Shown here piece after piece: positions 1 through 21,237 of a DNA stretch of 36,540 nt (its first letter is position 1; each line of letters begins with the position of its first letter). The notes under the pieces were generated by a model. It searched no databases. It was not told where the DNA came from and saw only the letters and a list, made by a program, of their open reading frames with translations. The position numbers were made by a program, and so were the translations under genes. Source of the DNA: Acidimicrobiia bacterium (GTDB lineage Bacteria; Actinomycetota; Acidimicrobiia; Spongiisociales; Spongiisociaceae); NCBI GenBank assembly GCA_011523395.1, contig WTGW01000013.1, positions 1 through 36,540 on the forward strand, written 5' to 3'.

Positions 1-1470
1 CCCGTATGTCCCGCCCCCATCGCCGAGGGCGATTCCGACCGCATCGGGATGCGCTGGGACGGCCCCCCGATCGGCCCCAAGTACTTCTACGCCTACATCG
101 ATGGCCACACTGCCGACTACAGCGACTTCGCGGCCTATGGGAGGCTGAGGGTCGACGCCCAGGGCGATAGCGACACCCTGTGGGTCCCCGTGGTGACGAC
201 GCAGGACACCCGGCCTGAACACGACGAGACCTTCGAAATGGGCCTCTTCGCCCATGGCAGATTCCACTCCTGCGTCGTCACGATCGTGGACGACGACGCC
301 CCGACCATCACCGGGGTGGCCGTCACCTCCACGCCTGCCCGGGGAGACGCCTACCGCAGCGGGGAGAACATCGACATCACGCTGACCTTCGACATGGCGG
401 TAGATGTGGCAGGCGATGCCTGGCTGACCCTCCGCCTCGGTGACGGAGACGATTACACGCCAAGAGAAGCGCGGTACCTCCGGGGCTCCGGGACCAGACA
501 CCTGGTCTTCCGGTACCAGGTCCAACCCTCCGACAGTGACCCTGACGGCATCGCTGTCAGCGGCACCGCCCACGATGACGGCTCAACCCACGGCTTGGGC
601 GGCACCGTCTATGCGCGGGGGACCGACGTACCAATCGATCGCACCCATGCAGGTCTCGAAACGGCGGCCAACCACAAAGTCGACGGCAGACCCTATGTGA
701 AACATGTCGGGGTCATCTCAACGCCGCCCGACGGATGGGAGACCTACCGGGCTGGTCAGGCCATCGAGATCGCACTTACCTTCGACACCAACGTGGTCGT
801 GGAAGGAGAAGTGCGCCTGGGACTCTATGTCGGTCTGGTCCATGACAACTGGGCCGAAGCCTGGCGAGAGGCCGGCTACCTCAGAGGCTCGGGCACCGAC
901 ACCCTGGTCTTCGGCTACACCGTCGCGCCGGGAGACACGGACATCAGGGGGATCGCCATCCCCGGCGGCGCCATCGCAGTCCTGGGAAGCGGGACCATCA
1001 AGGCCGAAGGCATCGATGTCGAATACCAGATGCACTTCGCGGCTACCGGCCACCTCCCGGATCACAAGATCGACACCGCCGCTCCCACAGTGTCGGGCAT
1101 CTACCTCACATCCCGGCCCGCCAACGGGCAGGCCTACCAGGCGGGAGAAGTAATCAGGGTGGAAGTGGTGTTCAGCGAACCGGTCACCAAATCCGGCGAC
1201 CTCCGGTTGGAACTGGACATCGGCGGTGAGAACCGGCGTGCCACCCTCCGGCCCGATACCAACCCGAACCGGCGCTTCAACAACGACATGGTGTTCGAGT
1301 ACCAGGTCCAGGCAGGCGACACCGACCCCGACGGGATCGAGATCGGCGCCAACAGCATCCAACTCAACGGCGGCGCCATCCGCGACCGCGCGGGTAACCC
1401 CGCCGACCTCTCCCACCAACCCGTCGCCGCCGACCCGCACCAGGAGGTCAACACCGACGTCGAGTACTGA
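1..1470 (+). CDS. Calx-beta/Ig-like repeat protein, C-terminal part (5' truncated by window edge)
   Basis: The frame is open from base 1 to the TGA at 1468-1470, so only the C-terminal 489 residues are present and the start lies outside the window. The first ~95 residues end in a Calx-beta-like pattern (DETFEMGLF...VTIVDDD). Three related repeats of about 125 residues follow, near 301-690, 693-1075 and 1081-1455. Each has the layout [I/V]xGVxxTSxPxxGxxYxxGExI.[I/V]xLxF...G, then REAxYLRGSGTxxLVFxYxVxxGDxDxxGIxI. The third repeat carries the Ig/cadherin-like ending AIRDRAGNPADL. No membrane anchor or sorting motif is visible at the C terminus, which ends acidic. Proteins of this build are usually large, secreted or surface-located beta-sandwich arrays; a role in adhesion or binding is inference. 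No enzymatic domain is visible in this part. Confidence 0.8.
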   Translation, partial: PVCPAPIAEGDSDRIGMRWDGPPIGPKYFYAYIDGHTADYSDFAAYGRLRVDAQGDSDTLWVPVVTTQDTRPEHDETFEMGLFAHGRFHSCVVTIVDDDAPTITGVAVTSTPARGDAYRSGENIDITLTFDMAVDVAGDAWLTLRLGDGDDYTPREARYLRGSGTRHLVFRYQVQPSDSDPDGIAVSGTAHDDGSTHGLGGTVYARGTDVPIDRTHAGLETAANHKVDGRPYVKHVGVISTPPDGWETYRAGQAIEIALTFDTNVVVEGEVRLGLYVGLVHDNWAEAWREAGYLRGSGTDTLVFGYTVAPGDTDIRGIAIPGGAIAVLGSGTIKAEGIDVEYQMHFAATGHLPDHKIDTAAPTVSGIYLTSRPANGQAYQAGEVIRVEVVFSEPVTKSGDLRLELDIGGENRRATLRPDTNPNRRFNNDMVFEYQVQAGDTDPDGIEIGANSIQLNGGAIRDRAGNPADLSHQPVAADPHQEVNTDVEY

Positions 1471-2559: not shown

Positions 2560-3099
2560 ATGCGTATCAGGACTGCGGAACTGCAGGATGCCGACTCGCT
2601 CGCCAGGGTTCACGTCGACTCGTGGCGGTCCACCTATGCCGGCATCCTGCCCGACGAGTTCTTGGCCGGACTCTCGTACCGGGATAGGGAGTCGTTCTGG
2701 GAACAGGTCCTGACGACGGCGCGGCCCACCGTCAGCAATTTCCTCGCGGAGACCGAATCCGGTGAGGTGGTTGGCATGGCCGCGGGAGGGCCGGAGCGCA
2801 CCGGAAACGAGACCTACGTGGGGGAGCTCTATCTCGTCTACCTGCTCGAGCAGTACCAGCGCAGGGGTTTGGGGCGCCTCCTCGTCTCGGCCGTGGCGGA
2901 GAGGCTGGTGGCGGACGGGTTCGAATCGATGCTGCTGTGGGTGGCGAAGGACAACCATCCCGCCTGCCGCTTCTACGAGGCGCTCGGAGGGGAACCGATC
3001 GACAGCAGAACGATCGACATCGCCGGAGCAGGCATAGCCGAGGTGGCCTACGGATGGCGGCAGGTAGCCGACCTGGTGACCGATCAAGCAGGAGTCTGA
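2560..3099 (+). CDS. GNAT-family N-acetyltransferase
   Basis: 179 residues, the usual size for a single GNAT domain. The N-terminal strand-helix MRIRTAELQDADSLARVHVDSW is typical of the RimI-like branch. Motif A, which binds the acetyl-CoA pyrophosphate, is seen at about residues 100-105 as QRRGLG, preceded by the beta-4 strand YVGELYLVYL. Motif B follows as LWVAKDNHPACRFYEALGG, ending in the common FYE.LGG pattern. These features support acyl transfer from acetyl-CoA to an amine, but the substrate cannot be told. It stands as a single gene on the same strand as its neighbours. ATG 2560 is the first plausible start and the only one that keeps the complete first strand. Confidence 0.88.
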   Translation: MRIRTAELQDADSLARVHVDSWRSTYAGILPDEFLAGLSYRDRESFWEQVLTTARPTVSNFLAETESGEVVGMAAGGPERTGNETYVGELYLVYLLEQYQRRGLGRLLVSAVAERLVADGFESMLLWVAKDNHPACRFYEALGGEPIDSRTIDIAGAGIAEVAYGWRQVADLVTDQAGV

Positions 3100-3666: not shown

Positions 3667-4728
3667 ATGACTATCTCGGGAATCTGGACGCGAAACGATG
3701 AAGTATGGGAACTCAGCCGACCCGAAGGGTTCCCCGACGAGGCGACACTACACAGGCTGATCGAAGACACGCCAGAGATGCTGCCTCTGGCCGGCGCCCC
3801 GGCACTCCTGGTACTCGGTAGGGAAGTGCCCCTGGGATCCGGCTACGCGGACCTCGTGGGGGTGGAGGCGTCGGGCCGACCGGTCATCATCGAGATCAAG
3901 CTGGCGCAGAACAACGAGGCTCGCCGCGCTGTTGTTGCGCAAATCCTCGCCTACGCGGCGAACCTCCACGGTACGACCCGCGAACAACTGGAGGATCGCT
4001 TCAGCTCGGAGCTGAAGCAGCGCGGCCACGAGTCCCTTGTGGATGCGATGAGATCGGTGGATGAGGAGGCGCTCGACAGCGAGGAGTTCACAACATCTCT
4101 CGACGAGCACCTGCAAGAGGGCAGGTTCCGGCTCGTGTTCGTACTCGACGAAGTGCCGGCGGAGTTGATGACACTTGTCGCCTACCTGGAACACGTCACC
4201 GACAAGTTGATGATCGACCTAGTCGCCGTTAACTCCTTCGACGTGGGCGGCGCTTCCGTCGTCCTGCCGCAACGGGTAACCCCCGAACGGCACGAAGTAA
4301 CCGTCAACGAGAAACGCCGCGGCAAGTCCGGCACCCTCTATCGGGGGAGCGAAAGATTCGAGCAGAGCATCAGCCAAGCACCTCCCGAGAGCCACGAGAC
4401 ACTGCACAGTCTGCTCCTGTGGGCTCGCAGCCTCGAAGCGAACGGTTGGGTACGACTCGCTACCTTCGAGGGCAAGGGAGCGAAGCGATTCACCTTGCTC
4501 CCACGTCTGGTGGTCGAGAACGTGGGCCTAGTCACGATCTGGAACGAGCGCGGCGCCTACCTGGCCTTCTGGCGCAGCGTATTCGAGAAGAGGGCACCTC
4601 AATTCATCGACCCGATCGAGAAACTGCTTGACACCCGGCTCGGCCAGGGCACGACAACTCGGAATATCAGCGAGAACCTCCTCTCCACCCTTACGGAGGC
4701 ATACGAACACGCGGCCCGCCGAGGTTGA
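3667..4728 (+). CDS. PD-(D/E)xK nuclease-like protein
   Basis: 353 residues. The N-terminal ~110 residues carry a recognisable PD-(D/E)xK core of the NucS/DUF91-like type: E33 in the first helix (LIEDTPEML), D62 in GSGYADLVGV, E76-x-K78 in VIIEIKLA and Q92 in VVAQILAYAANL. This is the arrangement G.ADL...G...EIK....ARR.VVAQIL.YAA seen in many such proteins. The rest (about 120-353) is predicted mixed alpha/beta with no family I recognise; residues ~245-320 (LLLWARSLEANGWVRLATFEGKGAKRFTLLPRL) look like a compact DNA- or substrate-handling domain. All four core residues are present, so DNA cleavage is possible but untested. A second PD-(D/E)xK gene follows after 160 bp in the same direction. 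ATG 3667 is the first start in the frame. Confidence 0.75.
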   Translation: MTISGIWTRNDEVWELSRPEGFPDEATLHRLIEDTPEMLPLAGAPALLVLGREVPLGSGYADLVGVEASGRPVIIEIKLAQNNEARRAVVAQILAYAANLHGTTREQLEDRFSSELKQRGHESLVDAMRSVDEEALDSEEFTTSLDEHLQEGRFRLVFVLDEVPAELMTLVAYLEHVTDKLMIDLVAVNSFDVGGASVVLPQRVTPERHEVTVNEKRRGKSGTLYRGSERFEQSISQAPPESHETLHSLLLWARSLEANGWVRLATFEGKGAKRFTLLPRLVVENVGLVTIWNERGAYLAFWRSVFEKRAPQFIDPIEKLLDTRLGQGTTTRNISENLLSTLTEAYEHAARRG

Positions 4729-4801: not shown

Positions 4802-4887
4802 ACCCTGGCATTGGTGGGTATGGGTCGGCGGGGGAGTGTCACTGCCGAGTGGTATCAAGTAGGTTCTCGTAAAGGAGAGGACTCGCA

Positions 4888-5988
4888 GTGGCTGTTGAGA
4901 TGGCGATCTGGAGGATGACCGAGGCAGGGCCTCGGCATCTGGTGTCATCGCCGCTCGATTCAGAACAGCGTCTCGAGGACATGCTCGCTGAAGATCCCGG
5001 CATGTGCGGGATGGACCTGCTTGTCGTTGGACGCCAGGTGCGGACCCGATATGGCGGATACATTGATCTCTTGGCCCTGGATGCTGACGGTCGCGCCCAT
5101 GTCCTCGAGCTAAAGCGTGATCGGACTCCTCGCGACGTTGTCGCCCAGACACTCGACTACGGGTCCTGGGTACAGGATCTAGGCGTCGAGGACCTGGAGC
5201 AGATCTATCTGGACCACCATGATGGCGAGACCGACCTCGGAGAGGCCTTCGCCGAGCGATTCGACAGCCCGCTGCCGGATGTGGTCAACGCCGATCAGCA
5301 GTTCACGATCATCGCATCCGAACTCGACCAGACCTCTGATCGCATCGTCGAGTTCCTCGCAGAGTCCTACGGCGTACCCATCAACGCCGTGTTCTTCCGC
5401 CACTTCAGGGATGAGGACCGTGACTACCTCGCCCGAACATGGCTGCTCGATCCTCAGCCGGACGGAGACACGACCCAGCGACCATCGCGGCGGAAGAGCA
5501 GGCCATGGAACGGCCGGGACTTCTACTGCGTCCTCGACCGGGCCGATCAGCCCGAACGCTGGTCCGTAGCCAGAAAATACGGTCTCCTAAGCGCAGGCGG
5601 GGGATCGCGCTACTGGAAACCCCTAAGACACCTCACACCGGGTAAACGCGTGTTCGCATATGTGGGTGGCGCCGGCTATGTCGGCATAGGCCGGGTCACG
5701 GGCGAGATGACTCCCGCTCGCGCTGCCGACGTTGAGATCGACGGGCAAAGCCAACCGCTCCTCAGTCAACCAGAGCTAAGCGCCGAGAAGTGGAAGAACG
5801 CCGCCTCGGAGGACCCCGATCTGACGGAGATGGTCGTACCGGTCGAGTGGCTGGGCACCCGGCCCATCGAGGACGCGGTCTGGGAACGCGGCCTTTTCTC
5901 CTCACAGCACGTCGCCTGCAAACTCCGCGATGAGAACACGATCAGGACAGTCCAGTCCGCATTCGGACTTGACCCCACAATCGACTAA
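4888..5988 (+). CDS. PD-(D/E)xK (NucS/DUF91-like) protein with C-terminal EVE-like domain
   Basis: 366 residues. The start is GTG 4888, fixed by AAAGGAGAGG at 4871-4880. The N-terminal nuclease-like core shows E30 (QRLEDML), D60 (YGGYIDLLALD), E74-x-K76 (HVLELKRDRT) and Q87 (VVAQTLDYGSWV), a close match to the NucS-type C-terminal nuclease fold. After a middle region (110-205, including a possible DNA-contact segment rich in R/K at 198-210) a second domain starts near 211: DFYCVLDR...RYWKPLRHLTPGKRVFAYVGGAGYVGIGRVTG. This resembles EVE/ASCH-like (PUA-fold) domains, which bind modified bases or RNA; that assignment is by pattern only. The pairing suggests a nuclease guided by base modification, perhaps restriction-like. 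The neighbouring gene 160 bp upstream is also PD-(D/E)xK. Confidence 0.75.
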   Translation: MAVEMAIWRMTEAGPRHLVSSPLDSEQRLEDMLAEDPGMCGMDLLVVGRQVRTRYGGYIDLLALDADGRAHVLELKRDRTPRDVVAQTLDYGSWVQDLGVEDLEQIYLDHHDGETDLGEAFAERFDSPLPDVVNADQQFTIIASELDQTSDRIVEFLAESYGVPINAVFFRHFRDEDRDYLARTWLLDPQPDGDTTQRPSRRKSRPWNGRDFYCVLDRADQPERWSVARKYGLLSAGGGSRYWKPLRHLTPGKRVFAYVGGAGYVGIGRVTGEMTPARAADVEIDGQSQPLLSQPELSAEKWKNAASEDPDLTEMVVPVEWLGTRPIEDAVWERGLFSSQHVACKLRDENTIRTVQSAFGLDPTID

Positions 5989-6081
5989 TCGACCATCCCG
6001 CAAGGAACCGTCTGCCGGATAACCGGACGTAGGCAGGAGCGATGGACCTCGGGAAGCCGGGCGCTACCAGACGAGGTCAGA

Positions 6082-6109
6082 GTGTCCCATAATGCATGTT
6101 ATGTAAAGT
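6082..6109 (+). other. dif-like XerC/XerD recombination site
   Basis: The 28 bases have the 11-6-11 architecture of a Xer site. The left arm is GTGTCCCATAA (6082-6092), the centre TGCATG (6093-6098) and the right arm TTATGTAAAGT (6099-6109). The inner pentamers CATAA/TTATG form the inverted repeat typical of dif. The right (XerD-side) arm matches the E. coli arm TTATGTTAAAT at 9 of 11 positions and the actinobacterial form TTATGTCAAGT, as I remember it, at 10 of 11. The left arm matches E. coli GGTGCGCATAA at 7 of 11. It lies in a gene-free gap. It could be the chromosomal dif, or a dif-like site used by an integrated element or phage. Confidence 0.7.
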
Positions 6110-6389
6110 TGTGGTTCCGATGATCCACCTGTATCCCTACCCTCGATCTCCTATCCCATCCAACGCCGGCGAAGTCCCATGACTCCGGCGAAGGGGGCCC
6201 AGGTCCGTCGTGAATGTCCCAAGGCCGGGTAACGAGTCACGGAGACCGTGAAGTTTCCTAGCGAGCGTGTTCACTCCCTGGCCGAGTTCGACGCCGGACC
6301 TGTTGGGAATCCGCATCCTCGGCGATCGCGATACTGCTCTACCCCAGAGTGCCCTGTCCAGCACACCCCGCGGGATGCTCCGGAGCCTG

Positions 6390-6422
6390 ATGCGGTGATT
6401 AGCTGCTACAATCACCGCATCT
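6390..6422 (+). promoter_or_regulatory. Operator-like perfect palindrome over the Fic gene promoter
   Basis: A perfect 12-bp inverted repeat (GATGCGGTGATT at 6390-6401 and its complement AATCACCGCATC at 6411-6422) with a 9-bp spacer ends one base before the Fic ATG at 6424. A third half-site ATGCGG is the start of the coding region itself (6424-6429). A -10-like TACAAT lies in the spacer and right arm at 6408-6413, so transcription would begin about at the ATG, giving a leaderless mRNA, and a protein bound to the palindrome would block it. The Fic protein has its own C-terminal winged helix, so autoregulation is a reasonable inference. Confidence 0.6.
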
Positions 6423-6423
6423 T

Positions 6424-7536
6424 ATGCGGCGGTTGTATATTCATGAGCATCGGGACTGGCCCCAACTCCGCTGGGAGGCCGGCAAGGTTGCGGACAGCCT
6501 GGCAGTTGTCCGCTACAAGCAGGGACGCTTGGTGGGCCGGATGCAATCGTTGGGGTTCGACCTGCGGCAGGAAGCGATTCTCGAGACTCTGACCCAGGAC
6601 GTCCACAAGTCCAGTGACATCGAGGGTGAACGTCTCGACCTAGAACAGGTCCGCTCGTCTGTCGGCCGTCGCCTCGGTTTGGATGTCGGTGGTCTTCCCC
6701 ACGCGGCGGACCGGGTCGAGGGCGTCGTTGAGATGATGCTGGACGCAACCGGCAACTATGACCGCACACTGACCGTCGAGCGGCTGTGGGGCTGGCAGGC
6801 GGCACTCTTCCCTACCGGGCGCAGCCGGTTGCGACCGATCACCGTAGGCGGCTGGCGTGACGACCGTACGGGACCCATGGAGGTGATCTCCGGACCGATC
6901 GGCAAGGAACGAGTGCACTTCGAAGCACCTGCCGCGGCGCGGATCGGCAACGAGATGGACCAGTTCCTCAGGTGGTTCAACGAGCCGTCGGACACTGACG
7001 GGGTGCTTCGGGCGGCATTGGCGCATCTTTGGTTCGTGACCATCCATCCCTTCGACGACGGCAACGGACGCATAGCCCGGGCGATCAGTGACATGGCCCT
7101 AGCCCGCTCGGAGGGCAGCTCACAGCGTTTCTACAGCATGTCATCGCAGATCCGGGTGGAACGCCGCGGCTACTACCGGATCCTCGAACGAACCCAGAAG
7201 GGAACACCGGACATCTCAGAGTGGATGGAGTGGTTCCTAGGTTGCCTCGGCCGAGCCATCGACGGAGCCGAGACGACCCTGGCATCTGTACTCACCAAAG
7301 CTCGCTTCTGGCGACAGGTCGAAGGCGTCCCGCTCAATGTGCGCCAGCGGAGGGTTCTCAACCGACTCCTGGACGGGTTCGAGGGCAAACTGACCACCTC
7401 CAAGTGGGCAAAGCTCGCCAAGTGCTCGCAAGACACCGCCCTGCGCGACATAACAGCCCTGGTAAACGATGGAGTCCTCGTCCGAAGTTCAGCCCGGGGT
7501 CGCAGCACCAACTACTCCCTCACCGCTGGACCGTAG
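6424..7536 (+). CDS. DUF4172-type Fic/DOC family adenylyltransferase with C-terminal winged helix
   Basis: 370 residues. The N-terminal DUF4172 segment (YIHEHRDWPQLRWEAGKV... KQGRLVGRMQSLGFDLRQEA) contains the inhibitory helix motif [S/T]xxxE[G/N] as S63-SDI-E67-G68. E67 is expected to occlude the ATP site and keep the enzyme off (class II Fic). The Fic core motif HPFDDGNGRIAR is complete at 208-219, with catalytic H208 and the anion-binding GNGR. Residues ~305-365 form a winged-helix domain (RQRRVLNRLLDGF...TTSKWAKLAKCSQDTALRDITALVNDGVLVRSSARGRSTNYSL). Fic enzymes transfer AMP to target hydroxyls; targets are unknown here. Start ATG 6424 begins inside the palindromic operator region, and no Shine-Dalgarno is visible, consistent with leaderless translation. 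Confidence 0.92.
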   Translation: MRRLYIHEHRDWPQLRWEAGKVADSLAVVRYKQGRLVGRMQSLGFDLRQEAILETLTQDVHKSSDIEGERLDLEQVRSSVGRRLGLDVGGLPHAADRVEGVVEMMLDATGNYDRTLTVERLWGWQAALFPTGRSRLRPITVGGWRDDRTGPMEVISGPIGKERVHFEAPAAARIGNEMDQFLRWFNEPSDTDGVLRAALAHLWFVTIHPFDDGNGRIARAISDMALARSEGSSQRFYSMSSQIRVERRGYYRILERTQKGTPDISEWMEWFLGCLGRAIDGAETTLASVLTKARFWRQVEGVPLNVRQRRVLNRLLDGFEGKLTTSKWAKLAKCSQDTALRDITALVNDGVLVRSSARGRSTNYSLTAGP

Positions 7537-8482: not shown

Positions 8483-9319
8483 ATGCCCAAGCGTCTGACA
8501 GCGGATGAGGTGGCTCAGTACCGGCGGGACGGGTACATCTGCCCGGTACGGGTGATGGATCCGGCCCGTGCGGCCGGTTACCGGCAGATGCTCGAGCGTT
8601 TCGAATCCGAGCAGGGAGGGCCGGTGTCGGGGGCGCTTCGCAACAAGTGCCACCTGCTGTTCCGCTGGGTCGACGAGTTGATGCGCGACGGGACCGTGCT
8701 CGACGCGGTCGAGGACCTGATCGGCGAGAACATCCTCTGCTGGAACACTCTGTTCTGGATCAAGGAGCCCCGGACCAAGTCCTACGTGTCGTGGCACCAG
8801 GATCTCAACTATTGGGGGCTGGACACGGATGACCTGATAACGGTGTGGCTGGCCTTGTCACCCGCCACGCCCGAGAGCGGCTGCATGAGCGTTCTGCCCG
8901 GAAGCCACCGGGGCGAGTTCATGCCCCACAGCGACACGTACCAACAGGACAACATGCTGACCCGCGGCCAGGAGATAACGGTGGAGGTCGACGAGGCCGA
9001 GACCGTGTCGATGCCGCTGCGGCCCGGTGAGATCTCCATGCACAACGGTCGCTTGGCCCATGCCTCCTCCCCCAACACGTCCGGAGACCGCCGGATCGGG
9101 GTCTCGTTCCACTACATGCCGACCAGGACCCGCCAGATCATCGGCGACTGGGACAGCGCGGCCCTGGTCCGGGGCGAGGACACCTACCGGCACTTCACCC
9201 ACACCCCTCGGCCCACCAGGGACTTCGACCCGGAAACAGTGAGGTTCCACGGCAAGGCCTCCGAAGCCGTGCGCGACATCCTGTTCCACGGGGCCGACAA
9301 GGTACGGCAGACCCTCTGA
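8483..9319 (+). CDS. Phytanoyl-CoA dioxygenase (PhyH) family protein
   Basis: 278 residues from ATG 8483; AGGAG at 8474-8478 supports this start over the GTG at 8480. The Fe(II)/2-oxoglutarate facial triad is visible as H105-x-D107 (SWHQDLNYWG) and a distal histidine around 193 (RLAHASSPN), followed by RRIGVSFHY, whose arginine would bind 2-oxoglutarate. The DLITVWLALSPATPESGCMSVLPGSHR stretch is the hallmark of the PhyH family. Members hydroxylate small molecules or acyl chains; the substrate here is unknown. It is a single gene bounded by the EEP gene (divergent) and a decayed toxin gene (convergent). Confidence 0.9.
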   Translation: MPKRLTADEVAQYRRDGYICPVRVMDPARAAGYRQMLERFESEQGGPVSGALRNKCHLLFRWVDELMRDGTVLDAVEDLIGENILCWNTLFWIKEPRTKSYVSWHQDLNYWGLDTDDLITVWLALSPATPESGCMSVLPGSHRGEFMPHSDTYQQDNMLTRGQEITVEVDEAETVSMPLRPGEISMHNGRLAHASSPNTSGDRRIGVSFHYMPTRTRQIIGDWDSAALVRGEDTYRHFTHTPRPTRDFDPETVRFHGKASEAVRDILFHGADKVRQTL

Positions 9320-9403: not shown

Positions 9404-9649
9404 TCATGTGTCAGAGTCGAACATGGCTGCTATCTCTCCGGCTCCCATGCGATCGAAGTCGTCGGGAACCGAGAAACGGCCCTCCAGGAAACCCACGCGC
9501 CGCTTGTGTCCAGGCACGGGAGCATCAACCGCCATCACCTTCACCAGTGGGGTTCCAGCCCGTGCGATTACGAACGGCTCACCATTCGCCGCGGCCTCCA
9601 CGAGCCGCGACAGGTGTGTCTTGGCTTCATGCATGTTGACGATTCGCAT
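9404..9649 (-). CDS. Phd/YefM-family antitoxin (orphaned)
   Basis: 81 residues. The N-terminal Phd DNA-binding fold is clear: MRIVNMHEAKTHLSRLVEAAANGEPFVIARAGTPLVKVMAVD, with the conserved N-x-HEAKT-L..L...V..GE...I.R.G.P.A.L pattern. The C-terminal tail (VGFLEGRFSVPDDFDRMGAGEIAAMFDSDT) is the usual toxin-neutralising segment of VapC-linked members. AAGGAG lies seven bases before ATG 9649. The toxin that should follow on the minus strand is reduced to a 12-codon remnant (9367-9402), so this antitoxin appears orphaned. It is transcribed divergently from the RHH-MazF pair, with 86 bp between the starts, so both systems share one regulatory region. Confidence 0.9.
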   Translation of the reverse strand: MRIVNMHEAKTHLSRLVEAAANGEPFVIARAGTPLVKVMAVDAPVPGHKRRVGFLEGRFSVPDDFDRMGAGEIAAMFDSDT

Positions 9650-9699
9650 ACGGTGTCTCCTTAGCCAACTTAGTCCACAAGGCTTAGTCGAGCACCGGC

Positions 9700-9731
9700 A
9701 TGTACAAGGATGTATACATAATGTATACTCA
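9700..9731 (+). promoter_or_regulatory. Tandem operator-like repeats upstream of the RHH-MazF pair
   Basis: Three tandem 10-11-bp units begin ATGTAC/ATGTATAC/ATGTATAC at 9700, 9710 and 9721. The two GTATAC cores (9712-9717, 9723-9728) are palindromic and 11 bp apart, about one helix turn, the spacing expected for ribbon-helix-helix dimers side by side. TATACT at 9724-9729 can serve as a -10, placing the transcription start on or near the ATG at 9736. Autorepression by the RHH antitoxin is inference. Confidence 0.55.
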
Positions 9732-9735
9732 GGCC

Positions 9736-9972
9736 ATGAGTACTACAACAGTCCGGATAGACAGGGAGACGCACGCGCGCCTCGTGCGGATGAGCGAGCG
9801 GGCCGGTGTGTCTCTCGGAGCGACCATCCGGGAGGCGGCCGAGGCGCTTAGTCGCCAACGGTTCGCCCATCGCGTGGCGGCCGAAGTGGCGGAACTGCGG
9901 AAGGATCGGGCAGCATGGTCGTCCTACCTGGAACAGGCGGAGTCGACTTCGGTTGCCGATGGCCTCGATTGA
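9736..9972 (+). CDS. Ribbon-helix-helix antitoxin of a MazEF-type pair
   Basis: 78 residues from ATG 9736. STTTVRIDRETHARLVRMSERAGVSLGATIREAAEALSRQRF is a ribbon-helix-helix domain: a short beta strand TTVRID followed by two helices, with the conserved G-[V/S]-[S/T] turn. The acidic C-terminal tail (VAELRKDRAAWSSYLEQAESTSVADGLD) would bind the toxin. An upstream in-frame ATG at 9700 lies within the operator repeats and is unlikely. The stop overlaps the start of the toxin gene by 14 bases, so the two are translationally coupled. Expected role: neutralise the MazF-like toxin and repress its own promoter. Confidence 0.85.
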   Translation: MSTTTVRIDRETHARLVRMSERAGVSLGATIREAAEALSRQRFAHRVAAEVAELRKDRAAWSSYLEQAESTSVADGLD

Positions 9973-10297
9973 CGAACTCTGGCTCGTCGACTTCGGCAAC
10001 CCGTATCCCGGAGAGCCGGCATCGCATAGGCCGGCCCTGATCATCGGTCCGCCACCGACGTTCGGGACCGGATTCCCGTTCGTCATCGTCGTTCCGCTGA
10101 CGACAACGTATCGGCGCCTTTCGCTCCATGTCGAAGTCGAGCCGACACCCCATACGGGTCTCGACCGCACGAGCTTCATCCAGTGCGAGCTCATTCGCTC
10201 GATCAACCGCAGCAGACTCGTTCGTCGTCTCGGTTTGGTAGCCCCCGACATCAGCCATCAGGTCAGGCGCATTGTCAGAACACTCCTGGACTACTGA
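9959..10297 (+). CDS. mazF: MazF/PemK-family endoribonuclease toxin
   Basis: 112 residues. The MazF fold is visible: ELWLVDFGNPYPGEPASHRPALIIGPP with the usual GEVW-VDFG-P...RPA.I[I/V] layout, VVPLTTTYRR as the conserved V.P.TS.-like strand, GLDRTSFIQCELIRSINRSRL as the [L/S]...S.....Q.RAID..RL block, and a C-terminal helix HQVRRIVRTLLDY. Family members cleave mRNA at short sequence motifs. The start ATG 9959 lies inside the antitoxin gene, 14 bases before its end. The reading frame is intact and of normal length, so the module is probably functional. Confidence 0.9.
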   Translation: MASIDELWLVDFGNPYPGEPASHRPALIIGPPPTFGTGFPFVIVVPLTTTYRRLSLHVEVEPTPHTGLDRTSFIQCELIRSINRSRLVRRLGLVAPDISHQVRRIVRTLLDY

Positions 10298-20349: not shown

Positions 20350-21237
20350 TTACGTGACCGAGGCATCGAACACGTTGCCCACCAGCCGGCCCAGAACCGC
20401 ATCGAACTCCTCCTGGGACTGGTCCACCATCAAGCCCTCCAGGAGGGCCCGGCTGAAACTCGCCACCATGCCGCGCTGCCGGGCCAGGCGCTCGCACGCC
20501 TCCCCGTGGTCGTAGCCCCCGGACAGGGCCGCTACCCGGACCACGTTGGGATGGTCGACCAGACGCAGGTACAGATCGTCCTGGCTGGGGAGGGTCAGCT
20601 TGAGCATCACGCCCGCGTCCCCCAGCCGGCCCAACCGGGCGAGGATGGCCCCCAGCAGCAGATCCTCCGCCTCGGCCTTCTCCGGGCTGTCGATGTCGAC
20701 CTCGGGCTCAAGGATCGGGACCATTCCGGCCGCCAGGATCCGCTCCCCCACCTCGAACTGCTGCTCCACGTTGGCCTCGATGCCCTCCCTGTCGGCCAGC
20801 TTGATGACCGAGCGCATCTTGGTGCCGAAGACGGCGCTCTCCCGGCCTTCCTCCAGTAGGTCCTCCAGGCCGGTCATCGGCTTCATGAGGTGGACGCCGT
20901 CCCGCTCGTGGTCCAGACCCTCGTCCACCTTGAGGAAGGGCACCACGCCCTTCTCCCGCCACAGGTAACGCGCCGTGGGCACACCGGCGATCCGGCGCCG
21001 CATCGTGTCGGCGAACAGGATGGCGCCAAGGATCCGGTCCCCGCCGAAACCGGGGCTGGTTATGACCCGGGTCCGCATGTCGTGGATCAGATCGAACATC
21101 TCGCCGCTGGTCGAGTAGGCGTCCTCCGGTACGCCGTATCTCGCCAGCGCCTTGGGTGAACTGCCCCCGCTCTGGTCCAGCGCGGCGATGAACCCTCTCC
21201 CTTCCTTAACCTTCTGCAACTGGTTTAAGTTCATCAT
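20350..21237 (-). CDS. Class I fructose-bisphosphate aldolase
   Basis: 295 residues, matching the compact bacterial class I type. GRGFIAALDQSGGSSPKALARYGV and the YSTSGEMFDLIHDMRTRVITSPGF segment are typical. FLKVDEGL, VFGTKMRSVIK, ILEPEVDID and the Schiff-base lysine K213 in GVMLKLTLPS are all present. It cleaves fructose 1,6-bisphosphate to dihydroxyacetone phosphate and glyceraldehyde 3-phosphate without a metal. ATG 21237 begins MMNLNQLQKVKEGRGF, the usual N terminus. The CoA-transferase gene lies 30 bp downstream; no pathway link is apparent. Confidence 0.93.
   Translation of the reverse strand: MMNLNQLQKVKEGRGFIAALDQSGGSSPKALARYGVPEDAYSTSGEMFDLIHDMRTRVITSPGFGGDRILGAILFADTMRRRIAGVPTARYLWREKGVVPFLKVDEGLDHERDGVHLMKPMTGLEDLLEEGRESAVFGTKMRSVIKLADREGIEANVEQQFEVGERILAAGMVPILEPEVDIDSPEKAEAEDLLLGAILARLGRLGDAGVMLKLTLPSQDDLYLRLVDHPNVVRVAALSGGYDHGEACERLARQRGMVASFSRALLEGLMVDQSQEEFDAVLGRLVGNVFDASVT

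Follow-up and report, generated by a model that had tools for sequence, protein, structure and literature searches.

A 28-bp dif site and a candidate polar guide motif at the probable replication terminus of an uncultured Acidimicrobiia bacterium

With a probability of about 97%, the 28-mer described in this study is the chromosomal dif of an uncultured member of the Acidimicrobiia (Table 1). It lies in the window, that is, the whole 36,540-bp stretch of DNA analyzed, which is the entire contig C61 of an Acidimicrobiia metagenome-assembled genome (MAG; 3.11 Mb in 239 contigs, 93% complete). The sequence evidence comprises the dif architecture, the single copy, the conservation among relatives, the terminus position of the homologous site in a relative, the presence of two Xer recombinases and an FtsK gamma domain, and a polarity switch of a sequence motif at the site. 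The site is of an ordinary, expected kind; what is new is another dif plus several by-products of its analysis. We found no account of dif in the Acidimicrobiia in the literature searched.

The 28 bp of the site are made up of 11-bp arms in inverted orientation around a 6-bp centre, and the 11-6-11 architecture given in the original prediction is confirmed at the same place and on the plus strand. The earlier estimate that about 20 of the 28 positions match Escherichia coli dif is also right, the count being 20/28. The gene-free gap reported around the site is 435 bp long (5989-6423), with a NucS-like gene on its left and a Fic gene on its right. As counted by eye, 20 of the 28 positions are shared with the Frankia alni dif CACGCCGATAATGCACATTATGTCAAGT (PMC3025954). 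Near dif, positions 9404-10297 of the window hold a gene for a Phd-type antitoxin (minus strand) next to an unclassified small ORF and a gene for a PemK-like toxin (plus strand).

Table 1. Features of the window and of related dif loci. Positions are those of the window unless a locus is named.
Feature	Position	Strand	Details
dif site, 28 bp (11-6-11), GTGTCCCATAATGCATGTTATGTAAAGT	6082..6109	+	one match in the host genome
XerC arm, GTGTCCCATAA	6082..6092	+	placed via E. coli dif; no variation at positions 2-11 within the genus
Central region, TGCATG	6093..6098	+	TGCACG, TACACG, TCCACG in relatives
XerD arm, TTATGTAAAGT	6099..6109	+	hardly any variation at positions 18-27 within genus and family
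Conserved TG extension beside the XerD arm	6110..6111	+	T invariant, G 83% (family)
Left neighbour	4888..5988	+	protein with a weak, sub-threshold Pfam match to the C-terminal domain of NucS
Right neighbour	6424..7536	+	DUF4172-Fic protein
GGGGGAG pointing at dif, left side	2820..2826, 4343..4349, 4830..4836	+	
First of 15 right-side GGGGGAG	9067..9073	-	
Other right-side GGGGGAG (starts)	10371, 10681, 15521, 17738, 18952, 19070, 19402, 20743, 22014, 23618, 25971, 27469, 29522, 32835	-	
Single counter-oriented GGGGGAG right of dif	10308	+	
Exact XerD-arm repeats in relatives	L005, L010, L029, L038, L072, L213 (right of dif)		unit lengths 39, 62, 56, 18, 26, 21 bp, respectively; L029 is a perfect 56-bp duplication
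Diverged repeat copies in relatives	L004, L008, L037, L067 (right of dif)		unit 42-76 bp
dif matches, tailed-phage contig IMGVR_UViG_3300025889_000244	L185 664-686; L189 about 1187-1209	-	

With up to three mismatches allowed, the 28-mer has no match in 100 shuffles of the window, and its 20-bp core has one match in the 3.11-Mb, 93%-complete host genome (reversed control, none). A looser core with two mismatches recovers from the host genome the site, its own overlapping reverse and one poor match, against three matches of the reversed control. A search with the actinobacterial consensus (up to three mismatches) reveals no competing dif in this genome. The genome scan proposed with the original prediction thus returns a single match, and the searches of the host genome show neither many similar sequences nor a better dif elsewhere, both of which would speak against a chromosomal dif at this place. 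Since the MAG consists of 239 contigs and is 93% complete, a second copy could lie in the missing DNA.

As in the host, one copy per chromosome is the usual state among relatives. A degenerate 20-base pattern is matched in 43 of 59 relatives from the same order, mostly once per genome, and in 35 of the 41 good-quality genomes; the reversed-pattern controls gave no matches in either set. Genomes with two matches (L041/L056 and L070/L078), whose flanks look homologous by eye, were considered as possible carriers of an element and were attributed to strain mixture. One genome, G013, contains a second, different dif-like site GATAATGGACATTATGTAAA (C180:2825-2844) in addition to a normal dif; this extra site might belong to a plasmid or an element. 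When nine members of the genus, the window included, and three further members of the family are aligned in one orientation, dif positions 2-30 are almost unchanged and the flanking DNA is diverged. The conservation at positions 2-6 and 27-30 is independent evidence, because these positions are outside the search pattern. The form of dif in the family is NTGTCCCATAATGCAYGTTATGTAAAGY, and that in the sister family is mostly NNCGCCCATAATCCNCGTTATGTMAAGY. Further, 60 stretches with the form of the window were found in genome_contigs, their labels being mostly Acidimicrobiia or Actinomycetota.

The location at the terminus is seen from the skew of a relative and from the motif polarity at the dif of the window itself. 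In the relative G011, from the same family, a contig labelled 'chromosome 1' is 3,007,243 bp long; dif lies about 489-490 bp inside its start, and dnaA at 1,384,835. Of 62 stretches of 20 kb sampled for skew, all those between 0 and 1.32 Mb are negative; around dnaA the skew is close to zero, and between 1.42 and 3.0 Mb it is positive apart from two small deviations. The GC-skew maximum thus coincides with dif, and the minimum with dnaA. An attempt to close this contig across dif did not find the right-hand neighbours of dif in its last 20 kb. The plain GC skew of the window is weak, with no sharp switch at 6082. In three congener contigs the skew boundary is diffuse: over some 50 kb left of dif the values are close to zero or slightly negative, and right of dif they are negative; the left/right difference is significant for G008 only (p=0.003). 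The skew curve of the host cannot be drawn because its MAG is fragmented (239 contigs) and 93% complete. The skew check suggested earlier is answered by G011, where the homologous dif is at the skew extremum of a 3.0-Mb contig; with the single match in the host, this bears out the original view of a chromosomal dif marking the terminus.

The motif GGGGGAG was learned from G011 by ranking all 7-mers on the leading strands, where it is the most biased one by both ratio and z-score (361:89). Over 12 contigs, its plus:minus counts are 110:9 left of dif and 14:164 right of it (p about 1e-53), or 92:7 and 14:164 when the training genome is left out; the corresponding counts in the window are 3:0 and 1:15. 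The same 7-mer was also obtained de novo as the top polar one in three congener contigs (147:10). The best break point of its polarity includes dif in eight of the nine contigs tested, three of these eight having an equal-scoring second interval, and is 1.7-2.3 kb from dif in the ninth. Since the bias is mostly lost in single-base variants (from 0.92 to 0.44-0.83), the polarity is not mere G-richness. From origin to terminus, CGGGGGAG increases in density from 67 to 204 per Mb and in bias from 0.67 to 0.98. AIMS are defined as strand-biased octamers with abundance and bias increasing toward the terminus, and KOPS are a subset of AIMS (PMC5993296, PMC5357621). The bias and abundance of GGGGGAG, as seen in the window (2820-32841) and in contigs of G001-G011, climb in the same direction, the strand bias switching at dif, and by analogy it is a candidate KOPS for the Acidimicrobiia that could guide FtsK. 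The sequence was not found in the text of the AIMS paper.

The host genome encodes XerC and XerD as well as an FtsK with a gamma domain. It contains exactly two PF00589 recombinases, one scoring best as XerD and the other as XerC when compared within the XerC/XerD families, and a single FtsK gamma domain. Both Xer scores are below the NCBIfam equivalog cut-offs, as might be expected of divergent members. The XerC-like gene is near an rpsB-like gene, the name rpsB being read from the protein. XerCD synapsis, activation of XerD by FtsK, and dimer resolution are the established mechanism in E. coli (PMC5357621). By analogy, the left arm of the window dif would be bound by XerC and the right arm by XerD, and the order of cleavage would follow the same scheme. 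At division, FtsK would pump DNA toward dif, probably guided by GGGGGAG motifs pointing in from both sides, and its gamma domain would activate XerD; strand exchange by XerCD over the 6-bp centre would then turn a chromosome dimer into two monomers. The replication terminus is now fixed in a lineage known here solely from metagenome-assembled genomes, the dif profile can be used for orienting and checking Acidimicrobiia assemblies, and GGGGGAG is a testable candidate for the FtsK guide motif.

The original prediction also allowed for a mobile element that uses Xer, in which case the 28-mer would be the attachment site or scar of an XerCD-using integrative element (IMEX), at the border of a mobile block. 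The genes adjoining the site are indeed variable: Fic, nuclease-like, and toxin-antitoxin genes come and go between the species of the genus, and the Fic ortholog is intact beside dif in four of 11 relatives compared (G001, G006, G008, and G010) and fragmentary in G007. The position of dif itself, however, is the same throughout the genus, and its right flank is syntenic in most species, containing PhyH, a pyridoxamine-oxidase-like gene, gamma-glutamyltransferase (GGT), and the gcv operon, with a dif-PhyH distance of 1.5-6.6 kb. The proposal that dif explains the clustering of accessory genes is borne out only in part: its adjacent genes turn over between species, but further rightward PhyH, GGT, and the gcv operon are conserved in most congeners compared. 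The genome has one copy only; no second dif-like site was found in the window or in the stretches around dif of 11 relatives, so that no mobile block flanked by two dif-like copies is seen; and in G011 the site is at the terminus. Gene turnover at a fixed dif without a second copy does not point to a dif-bounded element, and we regard an IMEX here as highly improbable.

A further point in favour of an IMEX is a tailed-phage contig having a perfect dif of the same type. In the 42-kb IMG/VR contig IMGVR_UViG_3300025889_000244, which encodes terminase, portal, tail, endolysin, and replication-initiation proteins, a perfect acidimicrobial dif is found at 21187, apparently in an intergenic region, and no PF00589 (tyrosine) integrase was found in this contig. 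The phage may use the host XerCD for its integration or resolution. Among the relatives of this contig, the only locus that extends well past the equivalent point has no dif. Similar dif-like sites were observed in further IMG/VR contigs (L206, L208, and L210). As for a chance resemblance, an unrelated palindrome-like sequence such as a regulatory inverted repeat would agree with the palindromic CATAA/TTATG and with the intergenic setting. It would hardly give zero counts in shuffles and reversed controls, be conserved despite differing neighbour genes, or coincide exactly with the switch of a genome-wide polar motif, and its probability is next to negligible.

A by-product of the comparison concerns the XerD side of dif. 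In about a tenth of the relatives, the XerD arm and its flank occur as tandem repeats, confined to the XerD side; the dif of the window has no extra copy. At 65 dif loci, the XerD-arm 10-mer TTATGTMAAG has eight exact copies no more than 200 bp away on the XerD side, all in the same orientation, and none on the other side; it is absent from the far regions of these loci (255 kb) and from 1.2 Mb of G011 remote from dif. The exact-repeat analysis found no nearby copies of the XerC arm. The repeat pattern is present in six of 138 genomes of the order (controls, none), and extra XerD arms with a gap of 5-35 bp in none of 396 genomes of the phylum. At six loci, among them L010, whose record includes the 3.0-Mb contig, the exact repeats start precisely at position 18, which opens the XerD arm and is the XerD cleavage boundary. 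With the breakpoint fixed there, joining initiated by XerD seems a more likely source of the repeats than slippage. Selection for XerD landing sites might also be their cause; in Bacillus, XerD unloads SMC at the terminus, as cited in PMC12322038. We propose, tentatively and with considerable doubt, that in this order the XerD-side DNA has been repeatedly rebuilt by tandem duplications starting at the XerD cleavage boundary, and that the resulting same-orientation half-sites, 18-76 bp apart, would be the trace of illegitimate strand joining that XerD initiates; the extra half-sites may be places where XerD alone lands, for example to unload SMC, as is reported for Bacillus subtilis. If the repeats do stem from XerD cleavage, they would be a record of off-pathway reactions by a recombinase believed to be under tight control.

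Among known systems, the dif/XerCD/FtsK system of E. coli shares with the one described here 20 of the 28 bases of dif, and it has in common two recombinases, the FtsK gamma domain, and polar guide motifs. The guide motif differs, being GGGNAGGG in E. coli as opposed to the candidate GGGGGAG here, and the polarity of GGGNAGGG in G011 is weak (289:197). The AIMS/KOPS octamers (PMC5993296, PMC5357621) share with the candidate GGGGGAG the strand bias and the increase toward the terminus. IMEX phages such as CTX-phi and Legionella LME-1 (PMC9765430) are matched by the phage contig in carrying a host-type dif copy; unlike them, this contig is that of a tailed phage and no integration at dif is seen. 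Finally, the predicted actinobacterial dif, as in Frankia alni (PMC3025954), has the same 28-bp length and 11-6-11 structure, a near-identical XerD arm, a single copy, and a terminus location. The XerC arm ends in CATAA here and in GATAA in F. alni, the central region here is TGCATG, and the outer XerC arm, another difference from the actinobacterial dif, is TGTCC in the family of the window and mostly CGCC in the sister families.
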